NCBI GenBank assembly: GCA_947498625.1 | Contig: CANMKR010000002.1 | Location: 434,001-498,000 of the forward strand | Length of the DNA stretch: 64,000 nt | Direction: 5' to 3' | From: an uncultured Kangiella sp. | GTDB lineage: Bacteria; Pseudomonadota; Gammaproteobacteria; Enterobacterales; Kangiellaceae | Part shown: positions 36,171 through 43,759 of the stretch, piece after piece | How the letters are laid out: every line of letters starts with the position of its first letter | How positions within the stretch are numbered: the first letter of the stretch is position 1 | The notes under the pieces: generated by a model | Told to the model about the DNA's origin: nothing | Database searches by the model: none | Seen by the model: only the letters and a program-made list of their open reading frames with translations | Made by a program: the position numbers and the translations under genes

Positions 36171-36237
36171 TTATAAGGTTATAACAGTTCGTATTTTTAG
36201 AGGTTACTGAGTAACCCACAACAAAAGAGAAGGAAAC

Positions 36238-38013
36238 ATGAAAAAGTTTATTATCATTGCATTAGCTTTGATTGCTGTTGCAGTTGGAGTTTATCTATAC
36301 AAAAACAAATCTTCCGATGGAGATATTGTTTCATCTATTACTAACAAGTTATCTGGCTCATCTAGTCAGGTTTTAGACTATGTCCCTGCCGATACTATTT
36401 TCTTTGGCGGTAACCTAGAAGCAATGGATTATGACAAGTTAATGGCCTTCAGCCGTAACTTTGGTCTTAATTTTGAAGTCATGGGCGAACTTTTCAATAA
36501 AGAAGAGTTTGACATGGGTGACGCACCAGACGGTGCAAAGTTCGTATTTGGTTTCGCCAAAAAGATGATGGGAGCTGTTTCTAGTGACTATCCTAAAACT
36601 ATGGGCGTTCCAAGTGAAACTGATGGCGCCATCTACACAGTTGGCGCTTTACCGGTATTCCGTTTTTCTTTAGATGGCTCTAACACTTTCCAATCAATGG
36701 TCGAAACTATTGAAAAAGAAAACCAAATCACTGCTAAAGTTGCTTCTTTAGATGGTGTTGAATATAGAGAATATTCTTTTGGTGAAGAGGTACCTGTAAC
36801 TCTAGTAGTTTCTACTCATAACAACCAAGCGGTTATGACTTTAAATACTTTGTTAGACGATGCGAAAGATTTGAAATTAGCATTGGGTATCGAAAAGCCA
36901 GCCAAATCTTTCTCTGATTCTCCGCGTCTAGCTGGCTTAGTAAATAAGTTTGGTTATGAAGGCCACCAGTTATTCTTAATGGATAACTTAGGTATTGTTG
37001 AAGGTATTACCAATCCTAAGGCTAATCACTTTGGTGGCATGCTAGATGATCTTCTAGTTGCTTACAATGTTAACAATGGTCCTGGAGTATCAGTTTTAGC
37101 AGAATACAGAACACCTGAGTGTCAATCAGAGCTTACCGCCTTTGTAGGAAACTGGCCTACTATTTCTGCTGGCTACACTAACTATGAAGCTAAATCAGCT
37201 AGCTACAAAATGGTTGTAGAAGGTAGCAACGCAGGTTTATTAGAATCTTTACAAAAGTTACACGGTCACTTGTCTCCAGCTATGGCTAACAAAGATATGT
37301 TATTCAGTATGGGCATGGGTTTTAATATGGCAGAAATGACTGGAGTATTAACCGATGTTTGGAAGCGTTTAACTAAAGATGCATACAACTGCTCTAGCTT
37401 AGCTGACATGCAAAATGCATTAAAAGGTAACAACCCGGTTATGCAGCTAGGCATGGTTAGCGGAATGTTAGGCGGTATTAAAGGCTTTGGCTTTGGTTTG
37501 GTTGATATGGATGTAAACGCCATGGAACAAGCACAAAACAATCCAATGGCTGCAGCTGATTCAGTAAGCTTAATCATGACTTTAAGTGCTGATGACCCAA
37601 TGGCTTTAGTTCAATTAGCCGGTCAATTCCAACCTATGTTAGGTGGCATCGAACTTGAAGAAGGTGCGGCACCAAAAGCATTACCATTACCTTTACCTGT
37701 TGAAGTTAACGGTTCATTGCGGGGACATGACTTAGTACTTTCTTTCGGCGATAAAGCTAATGCAATGGCTGCTGATTTAGATACTAATTCTTCTATCGAT
37801 TACAATGGTTTGTTCAGCGTTAATTACGATATGGGCAGATACTTTGGAATGATTAATCAAGCAATGGCAATGGATCCGAGCCAAGATGCTGATGCTGAAG
37901 AATTCCAGCGTGTATTTAACGAGATGTTTAAAAACGTTAAAGGCCGTTATACAGACAAAACAAGCTTCACTAAAAATGGCTTGGAAGTAACTATGGAATT
38001 TGACTTAAACTAA
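36238..38013 (+). CDS. Membrane-anchored periplasmic protein of unknown function
   Basis: A protein of 591 aa with one N-terminal membrane segment (MKKFIIIALALIAVAVGVYL) and a large exported domain beginning SQVLDYVPADTIFFGGNLEA, a phrase seen in DUF3352-like proteins. The region is rich in Met and Gly (MGMGFNMAEMTGVL, LGMVSGMLGGIKGFGFGLVD) with paired beta-strand segments. There is no catalytic motif. It has its own sigma70 promoter and a strong terminator, so it is a single-gene unit, likely well expressed. Function is unknown. Confidence 0.7.
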   Translation: MKKFIIIALALIAVAVGVYLYKNKSSDGDIVSSITNKLSGSSSQVLDYVPADTIFFGGNLEAMDYDKLMAFSRNFGLNFEVMGELFNKEEFDMGDAPDGAKFVFGFAKKMMGAVSSDYPKTMGVPSETDGAIYTVGALPVFRFSLDGSNTFQSMVETIEKENQITAKVASLDGVEYREYSFGEEVPVTLVVSTHNNQAVMTLNTLLDDAKDLKLALGIEKPAKSFSDSPRLAGLVNKFGYEGHQLFLMDNLGIVEGITNPKANHFGGMLDDLLVAYNVNNGPGVSVLAEYRTPECQSELTAFVGNWPTISAGYTNYEAKSASYKMVVEGSNAGLLESLQKLHGHLSPAMANKDMLFSMGMGFNMAEMTGVLTDVWKRLTKDAYNCSSLADMQNALKGNNPVMQLGMVSGMLGGIKGFGFGLVDMDVNAMEQAQNNPMAAADSVSLIMTLSADDPMALVQLAGQFQPMLGGIELEEGAAPKALPLPLPVEVNGSLRGHDLVLSFGDKANAMAADLDTNSSIDYNGLFSVNYDMGRYFGMINQAMAMDPSQDADAEEFQRVFNEMFKNVKGRYTDKTSFTKNGLEVTMEFDLN

Positions 38014-40668: not shown

Positions 40669-42699
40669 CTATTTGTCTTTCTTGTCGCTTTCTAATTTCT
40701 TTTCGTGCTCAAGATCATAGTTAGGTGGATTGCCACCCTTACCTTTCAAGTAATGATCCATCCAGCGCATTAGACGCATTGAATAATCCATTTGCGCGGC
40801 TGCTTTACGGTTACCATGGCCTTCGCCCGGATATAAGACCAGACGTACTGGCGCTTGCGCTAAGGTCTTTAAATAACGATACAGCTCCATAGATTGTGAT
40901 GGATGAACTCGAGTATCGTTCTCACCGTGCATAATCAACAAAGGCGTCTTAGATTTTTTCACGTGGAAAATAGGACTACGCTCTAGCATCCATTGGAAAT
41001 CATCCCATGGCCATACACGAGAATGCACCGCATGCATTTCATTAGGTATATCCGTAGTACCAAATTTAGATAGTTGGTTAGAAATACCTACAAACATTAC
41101 GCCGGCTGCATAATGCTCAGAAAGCGCTGTGGCTGACCAAGCCGTAGCGTAACCACCATAAGAACCACCAGTAATACCAACCTTATCTTTATCCACAATA
41201 CCCTTTTCTACTAAAGCATTTTTACCATCAACAATATCGGTAAACTCAGGATCGGCGTAGCCACGCTGATCAGCTCTAGCAAACTCATCGCCTCGACCAG
41301 TAGAGCCTCGATAATTTGGAATAAAAGAAACGTAGCCGTTAGCTGCAGCGACCTGAATTGGATCAGCATAACGGGTATTCCAACCATTTGAGCGATGCGC
41401 TTCAGGCCCACCATGCACAAAGGCGATCATTGGATAATCTTTGCCCTTTTTATAATTAATCGGATAAACCAAAACACCTTGCAAATCTAAACCATCTTGA
41501 GCACGGTAATTAAACACTTCTTGCTTACCAAAAGCGATATCAGCGAACCAAGGGTTTGAGTCGGTAATGCGCTTGCTACCTGAGTTTGAAGCCAAATAGA
41601 CTTCACTTGGATGAGTCGCAGTGTTGGTTTTTAATGCTAGCTGTCCGTTGCCAGCTAAAGACATAGAAGTTTGAATGCCATTACCATAAGTTACTAAGGT
41701 AGCGTTGGTCGAGCCATCTGATTTAACAACTCGTGATTCAGCGTCTTTATGCTCAATATAGTAAACGTCGTTACCTAACCAAGCGATATCCATAATATGA
41801 CTGTCCTTATTATTTTTACGCTTAGCAATTTTGCCATTACGAGCATTCGCGACGTATAAAGCTCCAGCCGTTGGATCGTTATAGTCATTAGCACCCAAAA
41901 AAGCGACTAGCTTGCCATCAGTCGACCAGATAGCTTTACCCTGCTTACCTTCCGTTTTAAATTTGGTTTTGGTTCGCCCTTTTAAATCAATGATTTGAAG
42001 CGTTTGCAACATTAAGACATCATCAATTAAAGACGTAGGACTTGATTGAACTAACACCTGGTCATTTACTGGACTAAATTTCGCAGATACCAGATGCTCT
42101 TCAAATTTAATTTTTTCTGCTTTAGGCTCTTCTTGAGTTAAATCCGCTAACCACAAATGATTGGTTTGGATATCCTCTTCATACACTTTAGCTTTAAAGC
42201 CTTTCTTCGATAGCGTTTCTAGATGCTTAGGCTTTTTGGTTTTTGCTATAAAAACAACCTTAGTACCATCGTGATTTACGCTATAAGAGCCCACGCCATT
42301 GTCATAAGAAAGGATGCGTTGCGATTCGCCGCCGTCGATAGGTAAAGCGTATAGCGCTGGCTTTTTATCATCATGACGTTTCGCCGTGTAGTAGATTTTT
42401 TTCGAATCGTGCGACCAGCTTATGCGACTGATATTCACCTTGCCTGTAATAAATGGTCTTGGCTGGGCTCCATCTTCTGTAGCAATTAAATATAACTCAG
42501 ACCAAGCATTGCCATCTTCATCTTTATAAGGCGTTCTCGGTTTTGATTTTGTAAAGGCAACCCAGGCACCGTCAGGAGAAATCTGCATGCCGCCAACGGC
42601 GCGAACCTTGCTGATGTCTTCTAAGGTCATACCTTCTTTGGCGTCAACCCCGGTGATTGACAGCGCTAAAAAAGTAATAAATATCAATAATTTGTTCAT
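40669..42699 (-). CDS. S9-family prolyl oligopeptidase (acylaminoacyl-peptidase-like)
   Basis: Exported serine peptidase of 676 aa from the ATG at 42699 (the frame extends to a TTG at 42711 that is not needed). The signal peptide is MNKLLIFITFLALSITGVDA. The N-terminal half is a TolB-like beta-propeller (WVAFTKSKPRT, ISWSHDSKKIYYTAKR, AIWSTDGKLVAFLG). The catalytic half has VGITGGSYGGYATAW (Ser), LLIMHGENDTRVHP (Asp) and YPGEGHGNRK (His). It acts on short peptides in the periplasm. A TGTAAC-N5-GTTACA palindrome lies about 100 bp upstream. Confidence 0.9.
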   Translation of the reverse strand: MNKLLIFITFLALSITGVDAKEGMTLEDISKVRAVGGMQISPDGAWVAFTKSKPRTPYKDEDGNAWSELYLIATEDGAQPRPFITGKVNISRISWSHDSKKIYYTAKRHDDKKPALYALPIDGGESQRILSYDNGVGSYSVNHDGTKVVFIAKTKKPKHLETLSKKGFKAKVYEEDIQTNHLWLADLTQEEPKAEKIKFEEHLVSAKFSPVNDQVLVQSSPTSLIDDVLMLQTLQIIDLKGRTKTKFKTEGKQGKAIWSTDGKLVAFLGANDYNDPTAGALYVANARNGKIAKRKNNKDSHIMDIAWLGNDVYYIEHKDAESRVVKSDGSTNATLVTYGNGIQTSMSLAGNGQLALKTNTATHPSEVYLASNSGSKRITDSNPWFADIAFGKQEVFNYRAQDGLDLQGVLVYPINYKKGKDYPMIAFVHGGPEAHRSNGWNTRYADPIQVAAANGYVSFIPNYRGSTGRGDEFARADQRGYADPEFTDIVDGKNALVEKGIVDKDKVGITGGSYGGYATAWSATALSEHYAAGVMFVGISNQLSKFGTTDIPNEMHAVHSRVWPWDDFQWMLERSPIFHVKKSKTPLLIMHGENDTRVHPSQSMELYRYLKTLAQAPVRLVLYPGEGHGNRKAAAQMDYSMRLMRWMDHYLKGKGGNPPNYDLEHEKKLESDKKDK

Positions 42700-42801
42700 T
42701 AATGTTCTCAATATCGCAAATAAGGAGGATTAGAATAATAAAATTAACCACTAACTTCCAGTCCATTCATATAATATTAAACAGCTCCGATAAGTGTAAT
42801 C

Positions 42802-42818
42802 TGTAACTGTTTGTTACA
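42802..42818 (-). promoter_or_regulatory. TGTAAC-N5-GTTACA palindrome
   Basis: A perfect 6-5-6 inverted repeat about 103 bp upstream of the S9 peptidase start and 14 bp upstream of the putative small-RNA -35. GTAAC-type words also precede the DUF2884, serine hydrolase, HExxH peptidase and spy-like genes. Confidence 0.5.
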
Positions 42819-42831
42819 TTTGCTCAATAGC

Positions 42832-42860
42832 CTGCAATCACATATTTGTTAAAGTATAAG
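42832..42860 (+). promoter_or_regulatory. Predicted promoter of the candidate small RNA
   Basis: -35 CTGCAA (42832-42837), 17-bp spacer, -10 TATAAG (42855-42860). The -10 is good, the -35 modest. The predicted start is near 42866-42868. Confidence 0.45.
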
Positions 42861-42865
42861 TGGGT

Positions 42866-42960
42866 TTGGGTGCTTGCCATTACAGACCCAATTCTCAAAA
42901 TACCTCCTTCTCATTTTGAGAGTGTTAAGGGCTTCCAGTTTTTAGCTGGAAGCCTTTTTT
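42866..42960 (+). ncRNA. Candidate small RNA with anti-Shine-Dalgarno loop
   Basis: About 95 nt with three consecutive stem-loops and no ORF. Stem 1 is TTGGGT/ACCCAA (42866-42871 with 42886-42891). Stem 2 is a perfect 9-bp TCTCAAAAT/ATTTTGAGA (42893-42901 with 42913-42921) whose 11-nt loop ACCTCCTTCTC exposes CCUCCUU, the exact complement of AAGGAGG. Stem 3 is a perfect terminator with six Us. The terminator follows no coding gene on this strand, which argues for a trans-acting small RNA. An attenuator in the cmoA leader is the main alternative. Confidence 0.55.
42930..42960 (+). terminator. Orphan rho-independent terminator
   Basis: GGCTTCCAG (42930-42938), loop TTTTTAG, CTGGAAGCC (42946-42954), then TTTTTT. 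It is a textbook terminator with no upstream CDS on the plus strand; the nearest plus-strand gene ends more than 2 kb away. Confidence 0.9.
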
Positions 42961-43030: not shown

Positions 43031-43759
43031 ATGAGCGGCAAAGATACAATTTTCTCAGATCCTTTAGATAGCGTGAAAGCGTTTGAATTCGATCAAACAG
43101 TGGTTGAAGTTTTTCCTGATATGATCGAACGCTCGGTTCCCGGTTATAAGACTATCATTCAAGGAATTTCCGAGTTAGCAGAAAAGTTTATTCAAATCGA
43201 TAGCAATATCTATGATCTTGGTTGTTCCTTAGGGGCTGCGTCTTTCTCCATTCGACAAAAAGTCCCTGAGCCCTCTTGTAAGATTTATGCGATTGATAAC
43301 TCTTCTGCCATGGTTGAGCGCTGTCGTTTGATTCAAGCCAGTTACAACTTTGATATGCCGATAGAAGTTATCGAAGGCGATATTAATCAGTGTGACATGC
43401 ATAATGCCAGTATAGTAGTTTTAAATTTTACCTTACAATTCTTACCGCTTGAAGACAGGCTTCCACTCATAGAAAAAATATATGACTCGCTAAGACCAGG
43501 TGGTATTTTAATACTTTCTGAAAAGCTGCAAATGCAATCAGAAGAAATAGATGAAGCCATTATTGACTTACACCATAAATTTAAAAAGCGTAACGGCTAT
43601 AGTGATATGGAGATTGCACAAAAACGTGCTGCTATTGAAAATGTATTAATTCCTGATACTCGTGAAACACATATTAAAAGATTTGAATCAGCAGGTTTTT
43701 CATCATTTGAAACCTGGTTTCAACATTATAACTTTGTCTCATTCTTGGCTATAAAATAA
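43031..43759 (+). CDS. cmoA: Carboxy-S-adenosyl-L-methionine synthase CmoA
   Basis: Converts SAM and prephenate to carboxy-SAM, the donor for 5-oxyacetyl-uridine at tRNA position 34. The 242-aa product has DTIFSDPLDSVKAFEFDQTV and VFPDMIERSVPGY at the N-terminus, the SAM motif IYDLGCSLGAASFSI, and YAIDNSSAMVERCR. Length and motifs match E. coli CmoA. It is followed by cmoB with a 3-bp gap. The candidate small RNA and terminator end 70 bp upstream, so cmoA may depend on readthrough or on a promoter within that 70 bp. Confidence 0.95.
   Translation: MSGKDTIFSDPLDSVKAFEFDQTVVEVFPDMIERSVPGYKTIIQGISELAEKFIQIDSNIYDLGCSLGAASFSIRQKVPEPSCKIYAIDNSSAMVERCRLIQASYNFDMPIEVIEGDINQCDMHNASIVVLNFTLQFLPLEDRLPLIEKIYDSLRPGGILILSEKLQMQSEEIDEAIIDLHHKFKKRNGYSDMEIAQKRAAIENVLIPDTRETHIKRFESAGFSSFETWFQHYNFVSFLAIK

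Follow-up and report, generated by a model that had tools for sequence, protein, structure and literature searches.

A putative stand-alone small RNA gene with a conserved anti-Shine-Dalgarno loop upstream of cmoA in Kangiella

Introduction

What is encoded between an S9 peptidase gene and cmoA in Kangiella? In the window, by which we mean the whole 64,000-nucleotide stretch of DNA that was analysed, the S9 peptidase gene (40669-42699, minus strand) is the divergent neighbor of cmoA (43031-43759, plus strand; the name is that of the initial annotation, and Pfam identifies a methyltransferase followed by a PF08003 gene). The initial annotation saw here a candidate small RNA with an anti-Shine-Dalgarno loop and offered two functions for it, a trans-acting repressor of many mRNAs or a new attenuator of the cmoA operon. 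No evident sRNA work and no report of this RNA was found in the accessible part of the literature on Kangiella small RNAs.

Structure of the locus

The region 42861-42960 on the plus strand is predicted to fold into three hairpins, the last one an intrinsic terminator. The predicted free energy is -41.6 kcal/mol (z -5.0), and 0/200 dinucleotide shuffles were equally stable. Three stem-loops had been described at this position, and three are recovered in the fold. Stem-loop 1 (42861-42890, plus strand) is variable in sequence and is kept by compensatory changes. The middle hairpin (42893-42921, plus strand), TCTCAAAAT-ACCTCCTTCTC-ATTTTGAGA, is 29 nt long and near-invariant in 20 genomes. Its stem has the 9 core pairs originally reported, with 2 more pairs in the window's own fold. 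The loop ACCTCCTTCTC (42902-42912, plus strand; ACCUCCUUCUC in RNA) contains the anti-Shine-Dalgarno string CCTCCTT at 42903-42909 and the invariant CUCCUUCUC at 42904-42912.

The terminator occupies 42927-42960 on the plus strand, with the stem at 42927-42957 and the T-run at 42955-42960. As claimed, it is recognizable as a terminator: it passes a pattern scan, in which 2 were found per 1 kb vs 0.7 +/- 0.8 in shuffles, and the last hairpin and T-run are present in 20/20 Kangiella genomes. No ORF of at least 80 aa was found ahead of it on the plus strand, in agreement with the statement that no coding sequence precedes it there. The feature at 42861-42960 is thus confirmed as real. We annotate it as a putative small RNA gene of about 100 nt on the plus strand, its start placed from the -10 and its end from the terminator.

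Just upstream of the S9 peptidase start, window positions 42721-42730 (plus strand) read TAAGGAGGAT. The S9 peptidase leader strand reads ATCCTCCTTA, which resembles the sRNA loop.

Conservation and covariation within the genus

The locus is present and syntenic in 20/20 Kangiella genomes, always between the S9 peptidase gene and cmoA, so the link with cmoA seen in the window is kept throughout. A blastn search was carried out with 41 genomes, 20 Kangiella and 21 others, and all 20 Kangiella genomes (the window's own included) match at E <= 4.7e-7. A covariance model built from 6 relatives found the other 14, the window copy among them, in their loci. When whole genomes were searched with the model, the window copy scored 43.2 bits (E 4.6e-6); the weakest true copy (genome G004, E 0.0036) does not rank above matches that are presumably due to chance, the best of which reaches 9.5e-4 in G010.

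Covariation was examined in a model-fitted alignment of 20 rows, 17 of them distinct. Standard pairs fill 98.4% of the pair cells vs 82.9% in shuffles, counts that lean towards structure because the alignment is fitted to it, and slid controls of the alignment were at most 50.7% paired. Two-sided changes occur in 9/13 pairs of stem 1 and in 5/7 aligned pairs of the terminator stem. In the middle stem the 9 core pairs never vary and variation is confined to the two outer pairs. Compensatory changes, which the initial annotation named as a test for the middle stem, are therefore found on either side of it but not in its core, where nothing varies.

Across the genus the middle hairpin reads TCTCAAAAT-A[C/T/A]CTCCTTCTC-ATTTTGAGA, with a single variable loop position that is C in 12, T in 7 and A in 1 of the 20 genomes. 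Two genomes have one inserted A in this hairpin, and the loop is 11 or 12 nt long. The exact complement of AAGGAGG attributed to the loop is consequently present in 12/20 genomes (CCUCCUU) and replaced by UCUCCUU in 7 and ACUCCUU in 1. The part of the loop that never changes is CUCCUUCUC, which is found in 20/20; in this form the conservation of the loop in relatives is borne out. For comparison, 0/31 usable fourfold sites of cmoA are invariant in the same 20 genomes, with a median pairwise fourfold identity of 0.31. A near-invariant hairpin beside saturated cmoA sites argues for strong selection on the hairpin at the sequence level.

A coding role of the core was considered and rejected. There is no reading frame across the core that has a start and stays open in every one of the 20 genomes (locus L016 has none at all), and two relatives carry the 1-nt insertion. 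The conserved element could in principle lie on the minus strand, where AGAAGGAG followed by ATG would mark a tiny ORF or an antisense leader. The arrangement AGAAGGAG-N-TATTTTGAGATG can be read in 12/14 genomes of the group L007-L020, but the ATG is missing in the six window-type genomes and in L013/L014, and the promoter elements and terminator point the opposite way. We regard this reading as scarcely credible.

Promoter elements and a possible regulator

A -10-like hexamer, TAAAGT (42850-42855, plus strand), is kept in 20/20 genomes, as TACAGT in two relatives. Upstream of it lies an activator-like box resembling those of OmpR and RstA, a 10-bp repeat TGTAACTGTT/TGTTACATTT (42802-42821, plus strand) whose spacing to the -10 is conserved. 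GTTACA is found in 20/20 genomes, its start 37 nt upstream of the -10 in 12 of them and 38 nt upstream in the other 8. The distance from the box to the S9 peptidase start is more variable, 73-142 nt with 113 in six genomes, the starts having been picked mechanically. For TGTWACNNNNTGTTACAWTT, the upstream box is the sole exact match in its own genome; at two mismatches or fewer there are 8 matches vs 6 for the control. A promoter pattern scan returned 3 promoter-like sites vs 2.7 expected and none at 42850. The plausible promoter proposed for this locus is thus upheld by the -10 and the GTTACA box, conserved in 20/20, and receives nothing from the scan; we call a promoter because these elements are conserved.

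The box itself differs among genomes. In 8 genomes GTTACA stands in both 10-bp halves; in 7 the first half reads TGTAA(C/T), and in 5 it is unrecognizable. The element TTTGTTACAT, given as the E. coli OmpR repeat in the accessible part of PMC5438342, occurs upstream with no mismatch in 11/20 genomes and with one mismatch in one more (L008). TGTWACAW, from an excerpt of PMC3586657, served as a further motif for comparison with the box. The other 8 genomes give no fit to the OmpR motif within 2 mismatches. They resemble instead, at 2 mismatches, an RstA-type TACA tandem, the RstA box TACATNTNGTTACA as it appears in the available text of PMC4117788.

RstA-like regulators were found in sampled stretches of three genomes. 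Two RstA-like proteins scored 233 and 236 bits, below the RstA cut-off of 330, and a third regulator protein was nearest CpxR. An OmpR/RstA-type regulator probably acts on the sRNA promoter, judging from these motifs. MicF and OmrA/B are OmpR-controlled sRNAs. The Kangiella gene resembles them in having the OmpR-like TTTGTTACAT upstream, at one mismatch or fewer in 12/20 genomes.

Relation to cmoA

Because synteny with cmoA is kept in 20/20 genomes, the RNA might act in cis on the cmoA-cmoB operon, as its leader or as a transcription attenuator. This would suit 6/20 genomes, in which no more than 138-206 nt separate the start of the core hairpin from that of cmoA. In the other 14 (L007-L020) the distance is 420-485 nt, and a chorismate-mutase-type ORF on the minus strand intervenes between the terminator and cmoA. 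Three of these 14 ORFs were taken from an internal Met onwards (51-68 aa), and Pfam CM_2 (PF01817) was confirmed on one of the 14. No such ORF was found between the core and cmoA in the window's clade of six. A same-strand terminator lies directly upstream of cmoA in 6/20 genomes, the window included, and is not found there in 14/20.

Furthermore, cmoA carries a conserved -10-like sequence of its own, TATTATAGTA, in the 14 genomes with the ORF, and 5 of the remaining 6 have AGTGTAAACT or TATAGTAAACT. The window also folds as three separate hairpins. Finally, in 10 of the 20 family genomes from other genera, which were read up to 1.5 kb upstream of cmoA, no [CT]CTCCTT was found. With an opposite-strand ORF in between in 14/20 genomes and a separate cmoA -10-like TATTATAGTA in the same 14, the proposal of a new cmoA attenuator was rejected as very improbable. 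Very probably the element is an independent RNA gene, and there is good support for describing it as a stand-alone small RNA whose anti-Shine-Dalgarno loop is conserved.

Search beyond Kangiella

With blastn, 11 of the 21 non-Kangiella genomes gave matches, all at E > 0.2. Of 40 family genomes searched with the covariance model, 20 belong to other genera; 16 of these 20 contain matches at E <= 1, the best at E 0.0075. Ten of these family loci (L076-L085) were read, and the hairpin is missing in 9. The tenth, L078 (genome G041, E 0.017; positions 1548-1620), has a perfect 8-bp hairpin with the loop UCUCCUCAU ahead of a terminator. This hairpin starts within the last codons of a permease-like ORF, so that it lacks both a separate promoter region and a stem 1. 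L078, from another Kangiellaceae genus, was treated as a lookalike and not counted as a relative; it may reflect chance or be a 3'-UTR relative.

The search was extended to the order (247 genomes, 16 Kangiella and 231 others) under stricter filters that lose weak matches. There, 28 non-Kangiella genomes matched at E 0.0026 or worse, with 31 matches listed. None of the 14 listed matches that were read has a closed CUCCUU hairpin with a terminator; L170, L172 and L173 are like the core in their letters alone. When 44 loci from outside the genus were scanned for a perfect 7-bp stem that closes a CTCCT loop ahead of a T-run, L078 was the sole hit. Pattern searching of genome contigs returned 15 stretches, 13 from Kangiella or Kangiellaceae and 2 unrelated ones that do not form this hairpin. 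The RNA has so far been seen in Kangiella only, with no convincing relative in the searched non-Kangiella genomes.

Neither the window nor the 6 of 20 relatives that were scanned matched an Rfam family at threshold. The window RNA gave no match up to E 10 to ar14 (RF02344), anti-hemB (RF02837) or suhB/mmgR (RF00519); we take the latter two to belong with ar14 among the 'cuckoo' RNAs. Below threshold, relatives scored 32.9 bits for anti-hemB (L012; cut-off 49.5), 27.2 for ar14 (L008; cut-off 58.8) and 24.9 for suhB (L012; cut-off 41). AniS (RF02274) scored 20.1 bits, below its gathering cut-off of 50. The leader families Phe_leader and ylbH score about as high in relatives as the anti-Shine-Dalgarno-type families, and we treat the latter as possible analogs.

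Predicted pairing of the loop with ribosome-binding sites

The invariant loop sequence CUCCUUCUC is complementary to GAGAAGGAG, and its CUCCUU is shared with the 3' end of 16S rRNA (read as GGATCACCTCCTTA in one Kangiella genome). Target prediction against Shine-Dalgarno regions was carried out on 409 ortholog triples. They come from three species whose genomes were partly sampled, and start codons were set by a simple rule that places some gene starts wrongly. Conserved loop pairing at -8 kcal/mol or below was found at 22/409 gene starts vs 7.9 +/- 4.6 for permuted loops, a number reached by 3/150 permutations. In these 22 genes 51/66 duplex midpoints lie between 20 and 6 nt upstream of the start codon. 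At -10 kcal/mol or below there was no excess over permuted loops (1 vs 0.7).

The excess also vanished when the controls kept CUCCUU and only the rest of the loop was permuted (22 vs 19.4 +/- 4.3, with 39/150 reaching it). A 16S-tail-like string paired at more conserved gene starts than the loop did, 28 vs 22. Perfect 5-, 6- or 7-nt complements in the three species were no commoner than in CUCCUU-keeping controls. In 20 genomes the 8-nt complement AGAAGGAG matched 202 ribosome-binding sites vs 150 for the reversed control, self-matches included; the full 9-nt complement before ATG was found 2 times vs 2 for the control in the window's own genome. Pairing of the whole hairpin at <= -11 involved 20 gene starts vs 30.5 for its shuffles. 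Because the pairing falls on ribosome-binding sites and does not exceed that of other CUCCUU-keeping strings, these results show an anti-Shine-Dalgarno capacity in silico but not a specific regulon.

AAGGAG precedes 15/515, 13/516 and 15/409 sampled starts in the three genomes, about 3%. With so few strong Shine-Dalgarno sequences among the sampled genes, a regulon would be expected to be small, and masking to be selective rather than global. Of the original proposal, the stand-alone gene and the conserved loop stand, and repression of many mRNAs gains no support: the loop pairs no better than other strings containing CUCCUU, and few starts have AAGGAG. By a separate count Shine-Dalgarno use looks weak in Kangiella, with GGAG before 54/515, 67/516 and 60/409 starts in the sampled stretches of genomes G000, G016 and G007.

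One gene in the window is a candidate target. Its putative pairing site GAGAAGGA (36227-36234, plus strand) lies in the ribosome-binding site of a gene for a 591-aa protein (36238-38013). Before the start of this gene AGAAGGA is kept in 20/20 genomes and GAGAAGGA in 12; for the ortholog L302 an internal Met was taken as the start. The protein has a hydrophobic N-terminus, is present in 20/20 Kangiella genomes and has no match in Pfam or NCBIfam. In two triples the three species share a perfect 7-nt complement, AGAAGGA both times, a number that is statistically weak (control mean 1.37; 185/500 controls reach 2). sppA has AGAAGGA in the three sampled genomes but keeps it in only 13/20 overall. 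The 36238-38013 gene may be a target, and we offer it as a weak lead rather than a demonstration.

Discussion

With a probability of about 0.6, we read the element as a trans-acting sRNA specific to the genus, probably dependent on Hfq, with a CUCCUUCUC loop that would pair with selected ribosome-binding sites. A conserved -10, box and terminator are found in 20/20 genomes, as is the conserved unpaired seed CUCCUUCUC. The hfq gene is likewise present in 20/20. Conservation of the gene, structure, loop, promoter elements and hfq is what this reading draws on at the sequence level. As a free-standing gene the sRNA would have its own promoter, with an OmpR/RstA-type response regulator as the probable switch, and its transcription would end at the intrinsic terminator. 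The middle hairpin would then present CUCCUUCUC to a limited number of mRNAs, at their ribosome-binding sites. Hfq may help the sRNA and mRNA to pair, and pairing would block translation of the targets.

The most puzzling feature of the RNA is its frozen stem arms, which loop pairing alone leaves unexplained. For this reason we keep a second explanation as a less probable one, in which an RNA-binding protein or the translation machinery recognizes the invariant stem and loop together. The RNA would then be titrating or guiding its partner, and mRNA pairing would be secondary. Such joint recognition would fit three observations: the 9 core pairs are all invariant next to stems that covary freely, extended mRNA complementarity was not found, and CUCCUU is likewise present at the end of 16S rRNA. 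Conversely, the loop varies at one position and in length (11 or 12 nt), no protein partner is known for this reading, and, according to the available part of PMC5362039, pairing is the mode of action of a Neisseria RNA that has a loop of this kind.

More speculatively, the hairpin may be a mimic of the 16S rRNA tail. The translation machinery, or a protein that handles anti-Shine-Dalgarno tails, would recognize the CUCCUU loop and its invariant stem together, and the hairpin would tune initiation on the few strong-Shine-Dalgarno mRNAs of Kangiella under an OmpR/RstA-type envelope signal. The RNA would then differ from a conventional seed-pairing sRNA. We hold this to be improbable. For the sRNA reading that we prefer, the locus adds to Kangiella a family well delimited by promoter elements, structure, loop and synteny. 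It also raises the question why a whole hairpin is frozen while its neighbors drift to saturation, in a genus where a maskable Shine-Dalgarno sequence is rare in the sampled genes.

A close parallel in architecture is offered by NmsRA and NmsRB of Neisseria, of which NmsRA has demonstrated anti-Shine-Dalgarno repression by pairing. As described in the accessible portion of PMC5362039, these RNAs have three stem-loops, a UC-rich anti-Shine-Dalgarno loop in stem-loop 2 and short stand-alone genes, and their anti-Shine-Dalgarno segments are completely conserved within the species. They differ from the Kangiella RNA in having two gene copies rather than a single gene, a second anti-Shine-Dalgarno sequence in the linker between stem-loops 1 and 2, and targets among the TCA-cycle enzymes. 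The likeness is drawn from architecture, and sequence kinship was assessed via Rfam only.

The alphaproteobacterial ar14 or 'cuckoo' RNAs are similar in that hairpins expose ultraconserved anti-Shine-Dalgarno motifs, as stated in the part of PMC10746234 that was available. The stems of ar14 vary and the motif alone is conserved, whereas in the Kangiella RNA the stem is invariant too. Their motif is CCUCCUCCC, that of Kangiella CUCCUUCUC. Membership is not indicated: scores fall below the Rfam gathering cut-offs, and a single CUCCUUCUC loop takes the place of several CCUCCUCCC copies. The ar14 RNAs have three anti-Shine-Dalgarno loops and the Kangiella RNA one, together with a TACCCC motif near stem 1 in 14/20 genomes. 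This second C-rich motif is missing from the window's clade of six; in L007-L020 it lies in the first hairpin region, at most 45 nt before the core.
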